14,973 nucleotides of DNA, from assembly GCA_030611945.1 (NCBI GenBank), contig JAUWOV010000044.1:1-14973 (forward strand), written 5' to 3'. Below are positions 3,265 to 14,926 of this stretch, piece after piece. The notes below the pieces were generated by a model. It saw only the letters and a list, made by a program, of their open reading frames with translations, was not told the origin of the DNA and did not search any database. Each line of letters opens with the position of its first letter. Positions within the stretch are counted from its first letter, which is position 1. The stretch is from a bacterium. Lineage in GTDB: Bacteria > JAHJDO01. Position numbers and translations under genes: made by a program.

Positions 3265-3939
3265 TCATTCCCCTTTATCAAAGTGTTTATCTGCCATTCT
3301 TGTTATTCTATTTAGAACGATCTCAAGTTCCCTGCCTTTTTTCTGTTTTTCCTCCTTTGAAGTATCTGATGGAACATAAATAGGAGAACCAAAAGTTACT
3401 ACGGCCCTGGTGAAAGGATGTGGAAATACATAGCGGTCCCAGCTATTGAGTTTTCTTTTTCTGGACGCGCTGAATGTTATTGGAATTATTGGGCATCCTG
3501 ACTCGGCTGCTATCTGAATAACTCCTTGCTGTACTTTCTCAGCTGGACCTCTTGGCCCATCTGGTGTTATTGGCATATCAAAACCCTCTGATAACTTTTT
3601 AAGCACAGCCTTATGAGAATTTTTTTTGTAATGTCTGCTAGAACCTCTGACTACAGAATATCCAAATCTCCTGATAATTTTTGTTAAGAATTCCCCATCT
3701 TTACTTGGACTTATTAAAACACATACTTTTTTTTCGCCTAACCTGTACCTGTAATAATATAAAGTCAAAAACGATCTGCCATGCCAGAGGGCAAATATAA
3801 TATTTTTACCTTCTCTTTTTAATCTTAGATAGTTCTCTTTTCCTTCAGTTTCAAAGATTATGCTTCTACCAATACCTCTAATCAATATACGTACTAACCA
3901 CAGAATTATTCCTGACTTAAAAATATCATGTATTCTCAT
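3265..3939 (-). CDS. DUF374 lysophospholipid acyltransferase-family protein
   Basis: Membrane-associated acyltransferase of 224 aa, of the DUF374 branch found beside lipid A genes. After an N-terminal hydrophobic/amphipathic segment (residues about 9-28) come WHGRSFL (52-58), which supplies the catalytic His of the HX4D-type site in DUF374 form, ISPSKDGEF (76-84), VRGSS (97-101) and TPDGPRGPA (125-133), all diagnostic of the family. It probably acylates a lipid A precursor or another lysolipid on the cytoplasmic face. Its ATG overlaps the msbA stop (ATGA), so the two are translationally coupled, which supports a role in the lipid A pathway next to the flippase. The exact acyl acceptor cannot be read from the sequence. 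Confidence 0.88.
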   Translation of the reverse strand: MRIHDIFKSGIILWLVRILIRGIGRSIIFETEGKENYLRLKREGKNIIFALWHGRSFLTLYYYRYRLGEKKVCVLISPSKDGEFLTKIIRRFGYSVVRGSSRHYKKNSHKAVLKKLSEGFDMPITPDGPRGPAEKVQQGVIQIAAESGCPIIPITFSASRKRKLNSWDRYVFPHPFTRAVVTFGSPIYVPSDTSKEEKQKKGRELEIVLNRITRMADKHFDKGE

Positions 3940-5765
3940 TTTTCTGCATCCATACGAAACTGAAGATCATACAATTTCTTGTACAAACCTCCTTTTTTGA
4001 TAAGTTCCTCATGTCTCCCTGTTTCTATAATTTTACCGTCTTCAACTACTATAATTTTATCCGCATGCATGATAGTAGAAAGTCGGTGCGCAATCACAAA
4101 TGTGGTACGGTGAGTCACAAGATTATCTATTGCCTTCTGGACCAGATATTCCGATTCAGTATCAAGAGCAGATGTCGCTTCATCAAGTATAAGAATAGGA
4201 GGATTTTTAAGAATAGCTCTTGCAATGGCTATTCTCTGCGCCTCTCCACCTGAAAGCTTTACTCCGCGATCACCAATAACAGCATCATATCGTTCAGGCA
4301 TTTTCATTATAAACTCATGAGCAAGCGCAGCTTTAGCAGCATGTTCTATCTTTTCTTGAGAAACTTTTTTCTGATGACCATAAGATATATTCTGTTTCAC
4401 TGTATCATTAAAGAGAACAGTCTCCTGTGTAACAATTCCCATTTGCCTGCGAAGAGAATATAATGAAAATTCCTTAATATCCGTTTCGTCTATTGTGATT
4501 TCACCTGATGTTGGATCATACAGTCGTGGAATGAGATTCGCTATAGTCGTTTTACCTGAACCGCTTGGACCTACTATAGCAACAACCTCTCCGTGCTTAA
4601 TATCAAAACTGATATTCTTTAACACAATAACATCTTTATCATAAGCAAAACTGATATTTTGAAATTCAATTTTATTCTTAAATGTATCCAATGCACGCGC
4701 ATTGGGCAAATCAACAATCTCTGACGGACTATCCATAACTTTGAAGACCCTTGATGAAGCCGCAAGCATAGACTGAATCGTATTATTAACCTTGCTTAAT
4801 TTCTTTACTGAACCAGGTATCCCGCCTATAGCAACAGCAAATCCAATAAAGCAGCCAATGGTTAAATCCCCTCTTATAACAGAAACGCCGCCCAGCCATA
4901 CAGCAAGAGCAATTCCAAGCATACCTACAAACTCTGCAACAGAAGAAGTAACTGCTTGTATTCTTGTTCTCTTTATCTCTGTTTTAAAAACCCCCTCGTT
5001 TTCTTTATTAAACCTTTCTGATTCATAATGTTCCATAGAAAAGGCTTTAATAATTCGCATTGAGGAAAGACTTTCCTGCATCACTGAAAAAACAGATGCT
5101 CTTCTCCTTAAGGTAATGGATGTAACCTTGCGCATCTTTTTGCCAAATTTAGCAATTGGATATATTACAAGAGGAAATATCAGAACAGAGGCAATGGTTA
5201 GTTTTGGACTGAGAGCAAATGCCATTATTATGCGCGTCAGGATATTTAAAGGCTCTCTCATAACATCTCCAAAGAGTACTGTCATAGATTTTTTAACTTC
5301 TCCAACATCATTTGCAATACGGCTCATAATAGCGCCCGATTTCTGTCTGGTAAAGAAGGATAAACTCATATGCTGAATATGCCTGTACAATTTATTTCTT
5401 AAATCCAATGTCCCCCTAAGACCAGCGTATGTTATTAAATAACTTTGAGCAAAATAGGCGAATCCTTTCAAAATATAAATAAAAATTATAAATAAAACCA
5501 ACAATCTCAGCCATGCAAACACAGTGAATTCTGCTGTTAGCGGGGTTATAGCAATCTTATGCCCAAAGAGTTCTCCCTTAAGAGTTAGAGGAATTGGTAC
5601 GTTTGAGGATATATTATCCGCCGATAGGATATTATCCATAAATACCACTATGCCTCCTATTGAGCCAATAGTGCAGAATTGAAGAATGAACATACATATT
5701 ACTGCCAGCAGTATTCTCTTCCAGTATGGTTTTGCAAATTTCAGAATTCTTAAGTATTGATTCAT
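3936..5765 (-). CDS. msbA: MsbA-like lipid A/lipid ABC exporter (fused TMD-NBD)
   Basis: Half-transporter of 609 aa that dimerises in the inner membrane; MsbA-type members flip lipid A-core to the periplasmic leaflet. Transmembrane segments occupy about residues 15-45, 80-115, 165-205 and 275-315, with long cytoplasmic loops. The ATPase domain has Walker A GPSGSGKTT (399-407), Q-loop Gln447, signature LSGGE (504-508), Walker B ILILDE (524-529), D-loop SALD (532-535) and switch His560. Length and one-chain TMD-NBD layout match MsbA (about 580-600). Neighbouring lpxB and the DUF374 acyltransferase support lipid A as substrate; a multidrug exporter of the same fold is the alternative. It starts two bases after the fic stop, and its ribosome-binding site (GGAGG) lies inside the last codons of fic. 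Confidence 0.88.
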   Translation of the reverse strand: MNQYLRILKFAKPYWKRILLAVICMFILQFCTIGSIGGIVVFMDNILSADNISSNVPIPLTLKGELFGHKIAITPLTAEFTVFAWLRLLVLFIIFIYILKGFAYFAQSYLITYAGLRGTLDLRNKLYRHIQHMSLSFFTRQKSGAIMSRIANDVGEVKKSMTVLFGDVMREPLNILTRIIMAFALSPKLTIASVLIFPLVIYPIAKFGKKMRKVTSITLRRRASVFSVMQESLSSMRIIKAFSMEHYESERFNKENEGVFKTEIKRTRIQAVTSSVAEFVGMLGIALAVWLGGVSVIRGDLTIGCFIGFAVAIGGIPGSVKKLSKVNNTIQSMLAASSRVFKVMDSPSEIVDLPNARALDTFKNKIEFQNISFAYDKDVIVLKNISFDIKHGEVVAIVGPSGSGKTTIANLIPRLYDPTSGEITIDETDIKEFSLYSLRRQMGIVTQETVLFNDTVKQNISYGHQKKVSQEKIEHAAKAALAHEFIMKMPERYDAVIGDRGVKLSGGEAQRIAIARAILKNPPILILDEATSALDTESEYLVQKAIDNLVTHRTTFVIAHRLSTIMHADKIIVVEDGKIIETGRHEELIKKGGLYKKLYDLQFRMDAEK

Positions 5766-5767
5766 AA

Positions 5768-6646
5768 TTATCTATTTCCTCCAATCTTCCAAACGCCTTT
5801 TTCAAGAAAAGCTTCTATGGTTTGGCGATTTGCTTTATTTATCAAATTAGAGTGTGATACTTTATTCTTTTTCGCGTATTCAGCAAGCGTCATGATGTGC
5901 GCGCCTTCCAGATACGCAAGTCTCTTGTGATAACTGTTCGTAAGCGCTTTGCCGACTATTTCTTCCATGATTTCAGCAACGCCTTTTTCGTCAAATTCCT
6001 TAAATGCTTCGTAATATAATTTTCTATCAATGAATTTAATATTCACAGGCACAAAACCTTCTCGTATAAGCAGATAATTATTTATCACTCTTCCGATACG
6101 GCCATTACCATCAACAAACGGGTGGGTGTGTTCAAAAGCAAGATGCAGCAGAGCAATGCGTTTTATAATATTTTCGTGACTGTTTGCGTTATAACCTGCA
6201 AGCATTTTATCCAATCTTTCTGCTACTTCTTTTGGATCCGGTGCTATGTGGTTCGCAATCCTGACCCACTCACCATGCTTACGAAATCTGCCGGCTATAT
6301 CATCCCGGATATTTGCTATAAGCATTTTGTGAAGCGACAGAATAATCTCAAGAGTAAGCTCTTGTTCTTTGGCTTTTGCATTGATATAAAAAACTACCCG
6401 CGCGAGATTTTTTGCTTCAAAAATTTCTCTTTCAGTGATGTATCTGTCTAAATTTATTTGCAAAAGGATTTTCTCTGTTTCTTCAAGAGTGAGAGTGCTG
6501 TTCTCAATGGCATTGGAGTTATACACTTGCTCGGAAACCTCCGCTTCACTCAATAATTTCAGAAGCGATTGTTTACCGACAGACGCAATATAATACCGCT
6601 CTCTCAAGCGATTGATTGAATTGAAAACATGCAATATTTTTGCCAT
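5768..6646 (-). CDS. Fic-domain protein (probable AMP-transferase) with N-terminal autoinhibitory motif
   Basis: Protein of 292 aa with the complete Fic active site HPFVDGNGRIGR (residues 175-186; His175 catalytic, Asp179 metal ligand, GNGR anion hole). Such enzymes transfer AMP or another nucleotide moiety to a hydroxyl of a target protein. The N-terminus carries SNAIEN (44-49), matching the [S/T]xxxE[G/N] inhibitory helix, so this is a class II, self-inhibited Fic. The 'AGRFRKHGEWVRI' flap (118-130) is also typical. A C-terminal segment (about 250-290, LAEYAKKNKVSHSNLINKA) looks like a small helix-turn-helix domain. Its target is unknown. A strong promoter ends just before the start, predicting a leaderless mRNA. 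Placement between lpxB and msbA is unusual, but the msbA ribosome-binding site lies in its 3' end, so it is a settled operon member. Confidence 0.93.
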   Translation of the reverse strand: MAKILHVFNSINRLRERYYIASVGKQSLLKLLSEAEVSEQVYNSNAIENSTLTLEETEKILLQINLDRYITEREIFEAKNLARVVFYINAKAKEQELTLEIILSLHKMLIANIRDDIAGRFRKHGEWVRIANHIAPDPKEVAERLDKMLAGYNANSHENIIKRIALLHLAFEHTHPFVDGNGRIGRVINNYLLIREGFVPVNIKFIDRKLYYEAFKEFDEKGVAEIMEEIVGKALTNSYHKRLAYLEGAHIMTLAEYAKKNKVSHSNLINKANRQTIEAFLEKGVWKIGGNR

Positions 6647-6652
6647 AGTTGC

Positions 6653-6680
6653 AGTATATACTTTTTCACTCTTTTGTCAA
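6653..6680 (-). promoter_or_regulatory. Near-consensus sigma-70 promoter for fic
   Basis: On the minus strand TTGACA (6675-6680) and TATACT (6653-6658) are separated by 16 bases. The first is a perfect -35 and the second differs from TATAAT at one position. Only six bases separate the -10 box from the fic ATG, so transcription should begin at or next to the A of the start codon. No Shine-Dalgarno exists in that gap. The promoter may also feed msbA and the genes after it. Confidence 0.75.
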
Positions 6681-6726
6681 CAAAACCGTGAAAATTTGTA
6701 AAAAAATGACGATTTTCACGGTTTTG
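6681..6726. repeat. Perfect 15-bp inverted repeat upstream of the fic promoter
   Basis: CAAAACCGTGAAAAT (6681-6695) and its exact reverse complement (6712-6726) flank a 16-base AT-rich loop. The inner arm of the repeat touches the -35 box of the fic promoter, so it could be a repressor or activator site. Alternatively it is a hairpin ending lpxB transcription, although no T-run follows it in the minus direction. It fills most of the 97-bp gap between lpxB and fic. Confidence 0.75.
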
Positions 6727-6743
6727 AGCTGTGAGTCAGGTAT

Positions 6744-7880
6744 CTATTCCTCCAGCATTTGATATATACTCTCTGCGGCTCTTTTACTTGCGCCCGGACT
6801 CCCTAGCTTTTTTTTTATTTTGGATAACCTGTTTTTTATATCACTCATTTTTTCATTGCTATTCAGTATATCAAGAGCGCATCTACTAATATTTTCTGGA
6901 TTTGCTTCTTCCTGCAAAAGCTCAGGAACTATTCTCTTCCCAGCCATTATATTTACAAGCCCTATATGAGGGACACTCAAAAAAGTTTTAAATAAGAAAC
7001 TTGTAAGAGGAGATGCTTTATAAACAACGATCATTGGCACATTCAGAAGCGTCGCTTCAAGTGTTACAGTTCCTGATGCCCCGATCAGGAGATCGCAGCA
7101 GCCCATTCCATCATATGTTCTATTTTTAATAATCTTAATACTAATGTTCAGGCTATGAAGAACTTGTTCAATATCTTTCTCATCTATATTTTCCGAGCAT
7201 AATAGAACAAATTCAACATCAGAGAGAGATTTTTTAATTATTTCTGCCGCTTGAACCAACGCAGGCAATATTCTCCTTATCTCCTGTTTTCTGCTTCCCG
7301 GTAATAAACCAACAATACGTTTTCCTGTTATATTCAAACTTGTTAAAATCTCTTCTTTTGCGCCGGATGTTTTTACTATGTCAAGCAAGGGATGCCCAAC
7401 AAATTCTACAGGCACATCATACTCTTTATAAAAATCTTCCTCAAAAGGGAGAATAACTATCATTTTGTCAACACAGGCTTTTACTATTTTTATACGTCCT
7501 CTCCCCCATGCCCAGAGTTGGGGGCTGATATAGTAAACAACTTTAATATTCCTCTTCTTTGCCTGCTTTGCTAATCTCAAATTAAAGCCAGGATAATCAA
7601 TAAGAATAACCAGTTCAGGATGATCCTTATCCATGATCTCACATAATTTGCTGAAACGCCTTTTTATTTTAAATATTCCTCTAAATACCTCGCTTATACC
7701 AACTATATCAAGGTCATCAATATTGAATATATTTTCAACGCCTGCGCTCTGCATTCTATGTCCGCCCATACCGACGAATTTAAGTGTTGGATCTATTTTT
7801 TTCATATTCTTTACAAGATTGCTTCCATGCAGATCCCCTGATGTCTCACCTGCAACGATCATTACTTTTTTATTAGCCAT
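6744..7880 (-). CDS. lpxB: Lipid-A-disaccharide synthase
   Basis: Glycosyltransferase (GT19) of 378 aa that joins UDP-2,3-diacylglucosamine and 2,3-diacylglucosamine-1-phosphate into the lipid A disaccharide at the inner face of the cytoplasmic membrane. Family motifs are clear: AGETSGD (residues 10-16), FVGMGG (35-40), LIDYPGFN (93-100), YISPQLWAW (117-125), VGHPL (161-165), LPGSRKQEI (193-201) and the C-terminal-domain motif GASGTVTLEATL. Length matches the usual 375-390 aa. Its ATG overlaps the metG stop (TAATG), and AAGGA in the metG tail serves as ribosome-binding site, so translation is coupled to metG. It is the strongest evidence that this organism makes lipopolysaccharide. Confidence 0.97.
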   Translation of the reverse strand: MANKKVMIVAGETSGDLHGSNLVKNMKKIDPTLKFVGMGGHRMQSAGVENIFNIDDLDIVGISEVFRGIFKIKRRFSKLCEIMDKDHPELVILIDYPGFNLRLAKQAKKRNIKVVYYISPQLWAWGRGRIKIVKACVDKMIVILPFEEDFYKEYDVPVEFVGHPLLDIVKTSGAKEEILTSLNITGKRIVGLLPGSRKQEIRRILPALVQAAEIIKKSLSDVEFVLLCSENIDEKDIEQVLHSLNISIKIIKNRTYDGMGCCDLLIGASGTVTLEATLLNVPMIVVYKASPLTSFLFKTFLSVPHIGLVNIMAGKRIVPELLQEEANPENISRCALDILNSNEKMSDIKNRLSKIKKKLGSPGASKRAAESIYQMLEE

Positions 7881-9464: not shown

Positions 9465-9492
9465 TTGACAAAGAATTTTTATATGTTATATT
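9465..9492 (+). promoter_or_regulatory. Sigma-70-type promoter of the sugar operon
   Basis: TTGACA (9465-9470), a 16-base spacer and TATATT (9487-9492) give a strong vegetative promoter reading toward the LacI-type gene. Start of transcription is expected around 9499, leaving a leader of about 32 bases. No other clear promoter is seen before the glycosidase gene, so this one probably serves the whole operon. Confidence 0.7.
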
Positions 9493-9498
9493 TAGGTT

Positions 9499-9506
9499 AC
9501 TCGAGT
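9499..9506. promoter_or_regulatory. Candidate LacI-family operator (ACTCGAGT)
   Basis: ACTCGAGT is an 8-bp perfect palindrome with the central CpG common in LacI/GalR-family operators. It lies at the predicted transcription start of the operon, where a bound repressor would block the polymerase. It is shorter than most such operators, so this is a suggestion of autoregulation only. Confidence 0.4.
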
Positions 9507-9530
9507 GTGCGTATTTAATAGAGATGATAT

Positions 9531-10535
9531 ATGAAAAGAGTTTCAATGAAGAATATTGCCTCACTGTCCGGAGTGTCAAGGACAGTTGTTTCCAGAGTTT
9601 TGAATAACAAAGCTGATGAGTATAGAATAAGTAAAGACACAAAAAATAAAATTCTCAAACTTGCCAAAAAGCTTAAATATCAGCCAAATCAATTAGCGCT
9701 TGCATTGAAACTTGGCAGAACAAACACTATCGGGCTTATAGTATCGGACATAACCAATCCTTTTTTCTCAACCATTGCCAAGTGTATAGAGGATTTTCTC
9801 AACAGGGCAAATTATAGCCTAATAATATGCAATTCTAATGAAAAATGTGAAAAAGAAACAGAATATATCTCATTATTAAAACAAAAAAATGTAGATGGTA
9901 TAATTATTTCTCCAACACAAAACAGTTCCGATGGTATTAAGGAATTATTGCATGAAAGATATCCTTTTGTTCTTATAGATAGGTGTTTTCAAAAGATGGA
10001 TACAAATTGTGTTACGGTAGATAATAGAAAAGGCGCATATGATTTAACAAAATATCTCATAGATAGAGGACATTGTTTTGTTGCGCATATTGCAGGAATA
10101 AAAAAAACATATACAGCCAGTGAAAGATTGAAAGGATATAAACAGGCTCTAAAGGAAAATGGATTGAAGTATAGAAAAAAACTTGTTAAGCACACAGATT
10201 TTTCAATAGAAGAAGGATATAAAGCTGCAAGAGATTTATTATCTGGAAAAACAGAAAAAGCAACAGCTATATTTTGCGCTAACAATAAACTTACCATTGG
10301 GGCGTTGCAGGCGGTTTCGAATATGAAATTAAAAATCCCTGATGATATAGAAATTGTAGGGTTTGATGAGATTAATTTGTATAGATTATTTACTTTTCCT
10401 TTTGCTTTTATTCAACAACCTGCAGAAGAAATGGGAAAAAGGGCATCAGAGATATTACTTGAGCAATTAAAGAACAAAGATTCACATAAATTTAAGCAAA
10501 CAATACTCAAGACAAAATTGATTTGTATAGAATAA
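9531..10535 (+). CDS. LacI/GalR-family transcriptional regulator
   Basis: Regulator of 334 aa, the standard length of the family. Residues 1-60 form the DNA-binding head: MKRVSMKNIASLSGVSRTVV with a helix-turn-helix at about 6-25, VSRVLNNK as third helix, and the hinge at about 50-62 before TNTIGLIVSDITNPFF. The rest is a periplasmic-binding-protein-like effector domain, ending with the family pattern 'IVGFDEINLYRLF...QQPAEEMGKRASEILL'. The ATG at 9531 places the head at the usual distance from the N-terminus. It is first in an operon with the glycosidase (36-bp gap), kinase and isomerase, so it most likely senses the sugar or oligosaccharide they process and represses its own promoter. The effector is unknown. 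Confidence 0.95.
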   Translation: MKRVSMKNIASLSGVSRTVVSRVLNNKADEYRISKDTKNKILKLAKKLKYQPNQLALALKLGRTNTIGLIVSDITNPFFSTIAKCIEDFLNRANYSLIICNSNEKCEKETEYISLLKQKNVDGIIISPTQNSSDGIKELLHERYPFVLIDRCFQKMDTNCVTVDNRKGAYDLTKYLIDRGHCFVAHIAGIKKTYTASERLKGYKQALKENGLKYRKKLVKHTDFSIEEGYKAARDLLSGKTEKATAIFCANNKLTIGALQAVSNMKLKIPDDIEIVGFDEINLYRLFTFPFAFIQQPAEEMGKRASEILLEQLKNKDSHKFKQTILKTKLICIE

Positions 10536-10571
10536 ATAAAAATTGGATATTAACAAAAGGAGAAATATAAA

Positions 10572-11702
10572 ATGTTAAATCTAACAAAAATCAAAAAGGC
10601 AAAAACATTGCGTTGTTCATCATGGGATACAAGCGGTCGTAATTCCGACTCGTGGAAGATTGAAGGAGGCGAAACACGGGTTCTGGCTGATATCAAAGGG
10701 ACGGGCTGCATAACACATATCTGGATGACGCAGGGCAGCGGCTACCGGGATGTGCTTATTAAAATGTATTGGGATGGCGAAAAAAATCCGAGTGTGCTAT
10801 GTCCGTTGGGCGATTTTTTCGGGCTGGGTAATGAAATTGTAAACTCCTACCAGTCTCTATTGTTTACCGCTTCAACTAAGCAAAACAACAAGTTTAATCA
10901 GGGCTGCGCTTTGAACTGCTACTGCCCGATGCCGTTTAATAAATCGGCGCGAATCGAATTAGTGAATGAAGGGGCAAAAGATCACGGTCAGTATTTCTAT
11001 ATTGATTATGAGCTATATAATGAACCGAATAGCGATGATACAGGATATTTTCACGCTCAATTTAGGCGTGAAAATCCATGTAACGGCTGGGGGCATGAGA
11101 TATCTGTAAATGTAGCTGAAGCCAATATTGTCAATAAAGAAAGATTAGCATGGGAAAATAATTATGTGATTCTTGAAGCAAAAGGTGCCGGACATTATAT
11201 TGGTTGCAACATCAGTGTGACCAATTTTCAAGGAACATGGTGGGGGGAGGGAGACGATATGATATGGGTAGATGGCTATAAATGGCCGCCTGATTTGCAT
11301 GGAACAGGCAGTGAGGATTTTTTTAATCAGGCTTGGGGCATGCAGCCCAATGCCTTTATGCATAACGGCAGTTCCATTCACGAGAATAATACCAACGGCT
11401 ATCAGACATCATATGTTCATCATCTGGAGAATCCTGTCCGTTTTCAAAAAGAGATTAAGGTAACCATTGAACACGGTCACGGCAATCATCTTGCCAATGA
11501 ATGGTCTTCTGTTGCTTACTGGTATCAGAAAGAACCTCATCAGAAGTTTGGGATAGTTCCTGTTGATAAGCGCAAGCCTGTCCAACGTACTATGGATGGC
11601 AGATGGATCATTGATAAAAAGCCTCAAACATCGCAGATACCTGTGAAACTTAATGCTGAAATGAAAAAAATGAAGGCGCAGTGGAAAAAGAAACAGAAAT
11701 AG
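10572..11702 (+). CDS. DUF2961 / GH172-family glycoside hydrolase, cytoplasmic
   Basis: Protein of 376 aa with the DUF2961 core now classed as GH172. Characterised GH172 members act on alpha-D-fructofuranosyl or alpha-D-arabinofuranosyl linkages. Typical features are the N-terminal 'SSWDTSGRNSDSW.I..GET..LADIKGTGCITHIWM' (residues 16-52), PLGDFFGLG (78-86), 'FQGTWWGEGDDMIWVDG' (219-235) and HGTGSEDFFNQAWG (243-256). Glu226 and Glu248 fall in the two conserved acidic motifs and are the likely catalytic pair, by analogy with the two essential glutamates of the family. There is no signal peptide, so it should act inside the cell on imported oligosaccharides. A strong ribosome-binding site (AAAGGAG) precedes the ATG. 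The AraB-like kinase and FucI-like isomerase downstream favour an arabinofuranosidase role, which is inference. Confidence 0.88.
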   Translation: MLNLTKIKKAKTLRCSSWDTSGRNSDSWKIEGGETRVLADIKGTGCITHIWMTQGSGYRDVLIKMYWDGEKNPSVLCPLGDFFGLGNEIVNSYQSLLFTASTKQNNKFNQGCALNCYCPMPFNKSARIELVNEGAKDHGQYFYIDYELYNEPNSDDTGYFHAQFRRENPCNGWGHEISVNVAEANIVNKERLAWENNYVILEAKGAGHYIGCNISVTNFQGTWWGEGDDMIWVDGYKWPPDLHGTGSEDFFNQAWGMQPNAFMHNGSSIHENNTNGYQTSYVHHLENPVRFQKEIKVTIEHGHGNHLANEWSSVAYWYQKEPHQKFGIVPVDKRKPVQRTMDGRWIIDKKPQTSQIPVKLNAEMKKMKAQWKKKQK

Positions 11703-11736
11703 TTTCAATAATGCGCTGCAAAATGGAGATTACATC

Positions 11737-13380
11737 ATGGGTAAGTATGCCTTGGGTCTGGATTTTGGCACAGAATCGGTACGGGCATTGGCTGTGGACT
11801 GTAAGACGGGAGATGAATGTTCATTGGCTGTTGAAGTATATAACCACGGTGTAATAACTAAAAATCTGCCCGGCTTGAATGAACCATTGCCTCCTGACTT
11901 TGCGCTTCAGCATCCGCAGGATTACATTGACTCTTCTTATGCTGCTATTTCAGAAATCCTTAAAGATGTACCTGCAAAAGAGATCATAGGTATAGGTGTA
12001 GATTTCACGGCCTGCACAATGCTGCCTGTTAAAAACGACGGAACACCTCTCATGCAAATTGATAAATTTCGCTCTAATCCTCATGCATGGGTTAAATTAT
12101 GGAAACATCATGCTGCACAACCAGAGGCGGACAAAATAAATCAGGTGGCTCTAGAGAGAAAGGAACCATTCCTTAAATATTATAGCGGTATTATTTCCAG
12201 TGAGTGGATGCTTCCAAAATGCTGGGAGATCGCTAATAAGGCGACTGAGGTATACAAAGCCACTGATATTATGATAGATGCAGGAGACTGGCTTGTTTAT
12301 CAAATCACAGGAAAATTCTGTCGTAATGCCTGTGCTGCCGGGTACAAAGGTTTGTGGAACGCAGAAACTGGTTTTCCAGCTAAAGATTTTTTGAATGCTT
12401 TGGATCCTAAAATAAAAGATATGGATGAAAAATGGTTGAAAAATATTGTTTATCCGGGTCAGCGTGTTGGTGTTGTCTCAGAAGCATTTGCTACTCTAAG
12501 CGGTTTAATGCAAGGAATTCCTGTCTCTGCTGCGACCATTGATGCTCATAGCGGTGTTCCCGGAATGGGAGTATTCAGCGAAGGGTCTATATGCATCATA
12601 ATGGGTACTTCATCCTGTCATATGCTGCTTTCTAAGAAACTTCGTTTCTTCAATGGATATGCCGGCGTTGTTAAAGACGGCATCATCCCCAGATTCTATG
12701 GCTATGAATCCGGACAATCGGCCGTGGGGGATATCTTCGCGTGGTTTGCTAAAAATTTTATGAAGTCAAAAGGTGATACTTTCAGCGAAATATCCCAAAA
12801 AGCGTCAGTATTAAAACCAGGAGGGTCTGGCATTGTTGCACTGGACTGGATGAACGGCAATCGAAGTATTCTGATGAATTCACATTTAACGGGAATGATT
12901 ATCGGGTTAACATTGAATTCCCGTCCAGAAGAAGTCTATCGGGCATTAATCGAAGCAACGGCCTTTGGAACAAGAATTATTCTTGATGCTTATCAGAAGG
13001 TTGGAATTCCAGTGAAAGAAATAATAGTTTGTGGAGGATTGGTAAAAAATCCTTTAATCATTCAAACATATGCTGACGTGACAGGGATTCCGTTTAAAGT
13101 GGCAGCGTCAAACCAGGCTGTCGCATTAGGTGCTGCTATGTTCGGAGCAATTGCAGCAGGCCCGGAAAATGGAGGGTTCAATTCGTTTGAAAAAGCAATT
13201 CCGGTAATGACAAAACCTCCTTTAAAAACCTACTTACCTGGTAGCAATGCAAAGACTGTATATGACCAGCTTTTTGAAATATATCTGGAATGTCACGCTT
13301 ACTTCGGACGCAAGCATTCTGAAATAATGAAGCGTCTTAAACAACTAAAATTAAACACAAGAGAAGGAACGCATGAATAA
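11737..13380 (+). CDS. AraB-like FGGY pentulose kinase (ribulokinase type)
   Basis: Cytosolic sugar kinase of 547 aa, close to AraB ribulokinases (about 550-566) and longer than most xylulokinases. Visible family features are the N-terminal phosphate-binding GLDFGTESVRALAVD (residues 7-21), GIGVDFTACT (85-94), 'YYSGIISSEWMLPK' (148-161), the catalytic Asp269 in TIDAHSG, MGTSSCHM (289-296), GYESGQSAVGDIFAWF (322-337) and VCGGLVKNP (431-439) of the adenosine site, then 'AVALGAAMFGAIAAG'. AraB-type enzymes phosphorylate ribulose; E. coli AraB accepts both D- and L-ribulose. The sequence alone does not settle which isomer is used here. GGAG precedes the ATG, 34 bp follow the glycosidase stop, and the next gene overlaps by 8 bp, so it is a coupled operon with the isomerase. 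Confidence 0.9.
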   Translation: MGKYALGLDFGTESVRALAVDCKTGDECSLAVEVYNHGVITKNLPGLNEPLPPDFALQHPQDYIDSSYAAISEILKDVPAKEIIGIGVDFTACTMLPVKNDGTPLMQIDKFRSNPHAWVKLWKHHAAQPEADKINQVALERKEPFLKYYSGIISSEWMLPKCWEIANKATEVYKATDIMIDAGDWLVYQITGKFCRNACAAGYKGLWNAETGFPAKDFLNALDPKIKDMDEKWLKNIVYPGQRVGVVSEAFATLSGLMQGIPVSAATIDAHSGVPGMGVFSEGSICIIMGTSSCHMLLSKKLRFFNGYAGVVKDGIIPRFYGYESGQSAVGDIFAWFAKNFMKSKGDTFSEISQKASVLKPGGSGIVALDWMNGNRSILMNSHLTGMIIGLTLNSRPEEVYRALIEATAFGTRIILDAYQKVGIPVKEIIVCGGLVKNPLIIQTYADVTGIPFKVAASNQAVALGAAMFGAIAAGPENGGFNSFEKAIPVMTKPPLKTYLPGSNAKTVYDQLFEIYLECHAYFGRKHSEIMKRLKQLKLNTREGTHE

Positions 13381-14848
13381 AATAGCCGATATCTACATAC
13401 CTTTAGACAGCCGCGCTGAGCCTAACAAACAAGTTTGGCCTATTGCAACAAAACAACTAAGAGAGTTTATAAAAGTTATTAAGAGATGTGGCTGGGAAGC
13501 CAATGTGCTAAATTCTGATAAACCTGTTGCAAGTGTAGACGAGGGAATGCAGGTTATCAAAAAAGCAAAAGGCGAAAGGTTTATAAATTTCATGGCCGGC
13601 TGGGCTTATCCTGATTTTTCTGTAAGCCCAATGTGGCAGTTATTACCTAATGTACCAAAATTGATGATAGGAAGTACCCTGCCTGATTTTCCCGGCGCTG
13701 TTGGGCTTTTTGCCGCAGCGTCTGGCATGGCTCATATGGGTATTGAGACCAGCCGCTTATTCATAGAAAAATTTAAAAATCCTGACAGCTATGCAAATGC
13801 CATTAACACCTTTTTGAGCAAAGAAAACTATGAGCCGCTATATCCCGAGCCAATCGAGGTTGTTGTCAATGATTCCCACAGAGAAAAAGCAAAGAAAGCC
13901 ATCAAACAGCTAAAAGGGTCCATTTATGGGGTAGTGGGACCTCGTTCTATGCAGATGTGGAATAAGATTTCTGAGGCAGATTTCTTGAAATATTTTGGAA
14001 TCTCGCGGGAAGGATTTGATGGATTAAGGGTTTTAAAAATGGCTGAGAAGATTTCCGATAGTAAAGCGGAAAAAGCATTAAACTTTTTACTTGGAAAAGG
14101 CATGGATATTCGTCTTGGAAGCGATCCTGCTAAAATGCTGACAAAAGACATGGTGGTTTTTCAGATGAAAGTTTATTTTGCTCTACTTGAACTTAAAAAG
14201 CAATTCGGTTTGGATTTTTTAGGTGTTCAGGACCAGCTTGACTGGATAGAATATAACCCAGCAACCGATTTAACGCTGGGAATTTTAAACAATAAACTGA
14301 GACCTGAATCGGATGGCGAAACTGTAGTAGCGGCTACAGAAGCCGATGATGGAGCAGCTATAACCATGTATGTTTTAAAACTATTGAGCGGCGGAGAACC
14401 TGTAGGCTTTAGTGACCTGCGTTACTGGGATTCAAAGCGCGGACTATACTGGTTTGTTAATTCAGGTGCTTTAGCTCCTTATTTTGCCTACGGTTGCCAC
14501 GATTCTCTCAAAGGATCATGGTCTGAGCGGCAAACCTATATGTACTTTAAGCAAGGCGGAGGCACATGCTCTGTGGTGGTGCGCATTCCCGGGATAATAA
14601 CCTGGGCTCGTTTTTCGTATCGGAACCATCAGATGTATCTCTGTGCAGGTCGCGGTATTACAGATGTCCCTACAGAAAAACAGTGGCGAGAGCGTTCAAA
14701 CAGATGCAATCCTGAATGGCCGCACTGGTATTTAAAGCTCTGTAGTCAAATTGAGTGGAAAATAAATTCCAATCATCCTATGACTGTGATGGGAGATTAT
14801 CTTGCCGATTTGAAAGCACTCGCTGAGCAGTTAAGCCCAAAAACCTAG
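13373..14848 (+). CDS. L-fucose/D-arabinose isomerase-family protein (FucI-like)
   Basis: Aldose-ketose isomerase of the FucI/AraA superfamily, 491 aa (E. coli FucI has 591; a shorter FucI-like branch of about 470-500 is common). The C-terminal part carries the manganese-site residues expected from FucI: Glu323 in ATEADDGA, Asp348 in FSDLRYW and His468 in NHPMTVMGDYLADL. The spacing and contexts resemble the Glu, Asp and His ligands of FucI. FucI-type enzymes convert L-fucose to L-fuculose and D-arabinose to D-ribulose. Coupling by an 8-bp overlap to an AraB-like kinase points to a pentose, and no aldolase is present. The start ATG at 13373 follows AAGGA. The TAG stop lies inside the conserved edge of the mobile element that follows. 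Confidence 0.87.
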   Translation: MNKIADIYIPLDSRAEPNKQVWPIATKQLREFIKVIKRCGWEANVLNSDKPVASVDEGMQVIKKAKGERFINFMAGWAYPDFSVSPMWQLLPNVPKLMIGSTLPDFPGAVGLFAAASGMAHMGIETSRLFIEKFKNPDSYANAINTFLSKENYEPLYPEPIEVVVNDSHREKAKKAIKQLKGSIYGVVGPRSMQMWNKISEADFLKYFGISREGFDGLRVLKMAEKISDSKAEKALNFLLGKGMDIRLGSDPAKMLTKDMVVFQMKVYFALLELKKQFGLDFLGVQDQLDWIEYNPATDLTLGILNNKLRPESDGETVVAATEADDGAAITMYVLKLLSGGEPVGFSDLRYWDSKRGLYWFVNSGALAPYFAYGCHDSLKGSWSERQTYMYFKQGGGTCSVVVRIPGIITWARFSYRNHQMYLCAGRGITDVPTEKQWRERSNRCNPEWPHWYLKLCSQIEWKINSNHPMTVMGDYLADLKALAEQLSPKT

Positions 14849-14911: not shown

Positions 14912-14926
14912 TCACCCAATGGGTGA
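14912..14926. promoter_or_regulatory. Palindrome in transposase leader
   Basis: TCACCCAATGGGTGA, a 7-bp inverted repeat around one base, lies between the promoter and the GGAG (14932-14935) of the transposase. It is conserved in both element copies. It could form a short leader hairpin or bind a regulator. Confidence 0.6.

Follow-up and report, generated by a model that had tools for sequence, protein, structure and literature searches.

The window, as we call the whole 14,973-nt stretch of DNA analysed here, carries on its minus strand a gene for a 292-residue Fic protein (fic, 5768–6646; Pfam PF02661, E 4e-22), preceded by lpxB and followed after 2 bp by the gene for an msbA-like ABC transporter (3936–5765, minus strand). 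The start codon of fic is backed by conservation from residue 1 in the alignment of its relatives. The 97-bp gap between lpxB and fic contains a minus-strand promoter that matches at 11 of 12 positions: TTGACA (6680–6675) as −35 hexamer and TATACT (6658–6653) as −10 hexamer, with a spacer of 16. It ranks among the top two promoter matches of the window, bearing in mind that 0.7 such matches are expected per shuffled window; the −35 is nearly invariant in relatives, which also bear out the −10. Six bases (6652–6647) separate the −10 from the ATG at 6646, just as an earlier note on this DNA had described, and we infer a predicted transcript start at about 6645–6647, i.e., at the ATG itself. That note also reported a perfect 15-bp inverted repeat abutting the −35, and this too was confirmed: the arms (6681–6695 and 6712–6726) are 15 nt long, 100% complementary and 16 nt apart, and arms of at least 15 nt arose in 0/250 shuffled windows in one run and in 1/20 in an earlier run. 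Scanning the window against Rfam and for tRNAs gave no matches. The tight packing claimed for all other genes does not hold, with 197 bp between DUF374 and rdgB and 587 bp between rdgB and the ABC gene.

Elsewhere in the window, the opposite strand carries a cluster (9465–14848) encoding LacI-type regulator, DUF2961, carbohydrate-kinase-like and L-fucose-isomerase-like proteins, with a promoter of its own (TTGACA-16-TATATT with an extended −10). We also noted a 15-bp palindrome, TCACCCANTGGGTGA, at 2382–2396 and 14912–14926; it has 21 copies in the genome (reversed control, 0), several of them some 50 bases in from the start of a contig (C5, C61, C101), and is a dispersed repeat, perhaps an element end or a terminator.

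The inverted repeat at fic is real, yet it is better read as two of three copies of a half-site, CAWAANCGTGAAAA, its perfection being incidental. Half-site A (distal; CAAAACCGTGAAAA, 6713–6726, minus strand) is in forward orientation, half-site B (CAAAACCGTGAAAA in the opposite orientation, 6681–6694, plus strand) is reversed, and half-site C (CAAAAGAGTGAAAA, 6663–6676, minus strand) is forward again; A and B came from the repeat search, and all three were aligned across 56 loci. Half-site C overlaps the end of the −35 and sits between −35 and −10. A and B are convergent, B and C are divergent, and the −35 is the centre of a palindrome made by B and C. Each of the 56 regions examined upstream of fic, drawn from many phyla, has this promoter-operator; three of these regions are diverged or rearranged (L065, L067 and the Chlamydiota locus L075). 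Its geometry is fixed: the A–B gap is 18 or 19 nt, the −35 lies midway between B and C, and the promoter spacer is 16 or 17. Among the 34 loci with an 18-nt gap, mean pairwise identity is 84% for A, 88% for B and 85% for C, as against 44% in the A–B spacer and 31% in the flank on the upstream side of A. Some arrays contain extra half-sites (L067, L144 and some Chlamydiota); upstream of fic in L144, three tandem A–B units replace A–B–C, as if the operator could expand unit by unit.

These alignments bear directly on whether the repeat works as RNA, that is, as a terminator, attenuator or processing stem in a transcript that reads through from lpxB. The 15-bp stem does fold at −21.6 kcal/mol (z −2.3). 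However, the A and B arms match perfectly in only 5 of the 56 loci and usually carry 1–3 mismatches, half-site C is equally conserved although it lies outside the stem, and no terminator-like site was called there on the minus strand. We rejected this hairpin, which we consider very improbable, on the ground that its arms are not conserved as pairs.

Still less credible is that a generic mobile hairpin of the MITE or REP type landed near fic by chance. Within the 1.66-Mb genome the exact repeat arm occurs only at the fic pair (a lone copy with one mismatch is the next best match), the repeat core forms no further inverted pair, and a genome-wide search found the operator site to be unique; the earlier note's call for such a search is thereby answered. 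Across genomes, the B–C site was present in 46 of 50 that hold fic, at about one site per fic copy, and a reversed-pattern control gave 0. Two genomes (G000 and G002) have both fic and the operator site, and three others (G001, G003 and G004) have neither this fic family nor the site. What can be cited for a wandering hairpin is an A–B half-site pair at normal spacing in L050 (172–218), which lies away from fic; that genome also has an intact fic copy, and the pair may be the remnant of a lost one. Scattered copies are absent, and we rejected the mobile element on that basis.

The leaderless fic mRNA predicted by the earlier note gains support from the same loci: in about 42 of 56, across phyla, the −10 ends 4–10 nt before the ATG, and leaderless initiation thus looks conserved in most relatives. 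The remaining quarter or so have leaders of 24–37 or 68–87 nt, a few of them with a visible Shine-Dalgarno sequence, so the design does not depend on leaderlessness.

The Fic protein has the hallmarks of an AMP-transferase: the sequence HPFVDGNGRIGR (residues 175–186; 6089–6124, minus strand) conforms to the motif HPFx[D/E]GNGRxxR, and its catalytic residues are invariant in 31 sequences. Upstream of the Fic core, SNAIEN (residues 44–49; 6500–6517, minus strand) conforms to the class II inhibitory motif [S/T]xxxE[G/N]; S44 and E48 are invariant and N49 nearly so in a 31-sequence alignment. Since both motifs are intact and conserved, the activity of Fic is probably restrained at two levels, that of the protein and that of the promoter. 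The arrangement is not that of a two-gene Fic/antitoxin pair: the inhibitory motif lies inside Fic, the neighbours are lpxB and msbA, and no gene is common to most loci. Class II Fic proteins (FICD and C. difficile Fic; PDB: 4u04, 4x2e) share the catalytic core and the upstream inhibitory helix. Indeed, 4u04 and 4x2e are the best solved-structure relatives by sequence, but their matches stop at residues 212–218 and do not include the C-terminal winged helix.

That C-terminal domain is the proposed operator-binding part of the protein. Its 58 residues were modelled with a pLDDT of 88.5 as helix-strand-helix-helix-strand-strand, including a winged helix-turn-helix (HTH) at residues 250–289 (5780–5899, minus strand); the whole-protein model is poor at the N-terminus (pLDDT 66), and only the C-terminal model was used for reading the fold. 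Among solved structures, it aligns best with BldC, lambda Xis, a phage P2 DNA-binding protein and the MerR family (Z about 4–5, best 5.4), and Foldseek matches of the domain have E >0.5; these fold matches are weak. Pfam and NCBIfam searches of the domain named no family, recognised no HTH and gave no HTH_3 match. In its predicted fold the C-terminal 45 residues resemble excisionase/BldC/MerR domains (2ief, 6ama), a likeness that at 11–21% identity and Z of about 4–5 is one of fold only. The title of 2ief describes the lambda Xis–DNA complex as a cooperative filament.

A further observation is that the domain and the operator appear to have changed together. The recognition residues of the C-terminal domain are among the most conserved in Fic. 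In one Chlamydiota clade (L073, L139–L143), the recognition helix has SYPN in place of SHSN and most sites have the half-site core GTTAAA in place of GTGAAA; L144, which is also from Chlamydiota, has SHSN with GTGAAA. The model places the changed residues where the second HTH helix begins. This co-change is a single evolutionary event, and it is suggestive, not proof, of Fic reading its own operator. It also speaks against the operator being read by some other DNA-binding protein, whether from the host or from a restriction system: the site co-varies with Fic's own recognition helix, and it follows fic alone into many phyla, where there is no common neighbour. On the other hand, the binding of Fic to the site is deduced from sequence, and an AlbA/Schlafen-like gene adjoins fic in some relatives. 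We give a different reader about one chance in ten of being correct.

Relatives of fic were found at 64 genome loci, most of them 65–95% identical over the full length and in records labelled as many different phyla; conservation stops abruptly at ...VWKIG, after which the tail is variable. Of all copies, those labelled Acidobacteriota and Thermodesulfobacteriota lie closest to that of the window, and phyla are intermingled in the tree. The phylum labels carry the caveat that a bin may include foreign contigs, but several copies lie on contigs of 140–400 kb (L031, L039, L048, L056). By these comparisons, fic is a horizontally acquired gene that travels with its own control region. Candidate vehicles were considered and set aside. 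The neighbours include no shared partner gene or transposase that might carry fic, and no neighbouring gene is common to most loci; plasmids and phages hold only distant Fic relatives, all <60% identical, and viral contigs yielded none with >41% identity.

In G001, G003 and G004, three genomes from the same genus as that of the window, lpxB abuts msbA, and about 957 bp with the operator and fic are missing. Because these three have an empty site, the alignment tells us that fic and its operator are an insertion between lpxB and msbA, within a cluster of lipid-A genes. At the window junctions, 13–14 nt are doubled in a manner resembling a target-site duplication: GGAGGAATAGATA at the lpxB end (left copy, 6741–6753, minus strand) and GGAGGAAATAGATA at the fic end (right copy, 5769–5782, minus strand), as delimited with the empty sites L094, L096 and L097. 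Within the right copy, TTGGAG also belongs to the ordinary fic sequence, which makes a target-site duplication a tentative reading of the insertion. The right copy retains GGAGG ahead of msbA, which is a candidate ribosome-binding site for that gene. In G002, a fourth genome of this genus, where fic occupies the same site, about 1.9 kb of extra DNA lies between lpxB and fic (L099, 1165–3059), with HARE-HTH-like and GIY-YIG nuclease-like open reading frames that were identified by eye.

These comparisons divide the earlier suggestion that fic, and perhaps msbA and the genes after it, are regulated separately from metG–lpxB. Fic does have its own promoter-operator, which is kept upstream of fic in relatives, but the 97-bp gap is not an ancestral lpxB–msbA control region, for it is absent, like fic, from the three same-genus genomes. 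The fic stop and the msbA ATG are 2 bp apart, and no terminator was seen. Given this, msbA and the downstream genes would probably receive both read-through from metG–lpxB and transcripts from the fic promoter; it is plausible that the fic promoter drives them as a side effect of the insertion.

Bearing in mind that the site tracks fic, that the helix and half-site co-vary, and that the C-terminal domain is predicted to be a winged helix, Fic is most likely its own repressor. We therefore hypothesize, with a probability of roughly 0.78, that this horizontally acquired, self-regulating gene encodes a protein that represses its own predicted leaderless promoter through a MerR/Xis-like C-terminal winged helix. 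A sigma-70-type promoter would be wrapped by three half-sites, with RNA polymerase starting at or beside the ATG and the message being translated leaderless. Fic itself would be an AMP-transferase of class II that its own SxxxEN helix holds inactive. Its winged helix would bind the half-sites cooperatively, A adding to the cooperativity, and occupation of B–C would cover the −35 and repress fic. The sign of this regulation, be it repression or, at some sites, activation, is read from where the operator lies.

There is a tested precedent for such self-regulation in CccR of Yersinia pseudotuberculosis: this FIC-HTH protein acts as a repressor at its own promoter, where it uses an inverted repeat with a wide spacer (PMC9755527). 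CccR and the window Fic both have a FIC domain, an N-terminal inhibitory motif (SARIEG in CccR) and a C-terminal HTH, which for the window protein is seen in the structure model only; at both genes, long-spacer inverted repeats lie at the gene's own promoter near the −35 and −10. We likened the two by these features. In contrast to CccR, which has 380 residues, is linked to a T6SS and has the operator AGATAATCAT-N26-ATGATAATCT (PMC9755527), the window protein has 292 residues, a MerR/Xis-like wing, three CAWAANCGTGAAAA half-sites and leaderless spacing, and its family extends over many phyla. The C proteins of restriction systems (e.g., C.PvuII; PMC2997769) resemble the proposed Fic circuit in being self-regulated from an operator around the −35, with a leaderless transcript, and in sometimes being encoded directly upstream of a restriction gene, a position that fic occupies in a minority of its relatives (L038, L050, L089) and not in the window. 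C proteins, however, are small, stand-alone HTH regulators of type II systems, whereas the window Fic is an enzyme whose proposed DNA-binding domain is of another kind and whose family is linked to type I; at its size, and with Fic as its only Pfam family, it is no small stand-alone Xre/HTH_3 regulator.

The link to type I restriction emerges from the gene neighbourhoods. One locus (L033) has the order hsdM, hsdS, fic, an AlbA/Schlafen-type gene and the start of hsdR; in L038, hsdS is upstream of fic and an HsdR-type gene downstream overlaps the fic end, as does an HsdR-type gene in L050; in L070 and L089, hsdR follows closely after fic. Numerous other loci (L030, L031, L034–L037, L040, L069, L078 and others) keep 3′ scraps of hsdS or 5′ scraps of hsdR: either the tail of hsdS (...QKAFNG[EQV]L) ahead of the operator or the head of hsdR (MNEAETRAE...) behind fic, in many cases interrupted within a few dozen residues. 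These arrangements suggest that the fic family was often part of type I restriction operons and survives their loss. A further possibility, which we offer tentatively and regard as rather doubtful, is that the native role of Fic is to time or limit hsdR in operons ordered hsdM-hsdS-operator-fic-(AlbA)-hsdR, the window copy being an orphan that has left an operon of this kind or outlived it. The family would then be transcriptional controllers of type I restriction, in which a leaderless, self-repressed promoter between hsdS and hsdR separates restriction from modification, and solitary copies, such as that of the window, would be survivors of the loss of the restriction genes. This role is compatible with self-repression and does not exclude it, and the leaderless, self-activated transcript of C.PvuII, in a type II system (PMC2997769), is a parallel. 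Against it, most loci, including that of the window, have no restriction genes beside fic, the hsdR reading frames beside fic are truncated in L031 and L033, and the putative link to restriction or its expression derives from gene neighbourhood. The literature that we searched held no paper on a Fic controller of type I restriction, which is not proof of absence; a 2025 review states that surprisingly little is known about the transcriptional regulation of type I restriction and does not mention Fic (PMC12707154).

If Fic does repress its own promoter, FIC-HTH self-repression, described for one Yersinia protein, would extend to a family that is widely transferred and has a recognisable operator, in many candidate phyla that hold this fic–operator package, Patescibacteria included. 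The family would offer a test system for the co-evolution of a protein with its operator, and, should the hsdR link hold, type I restriction systems would gain a transcriptional controller.
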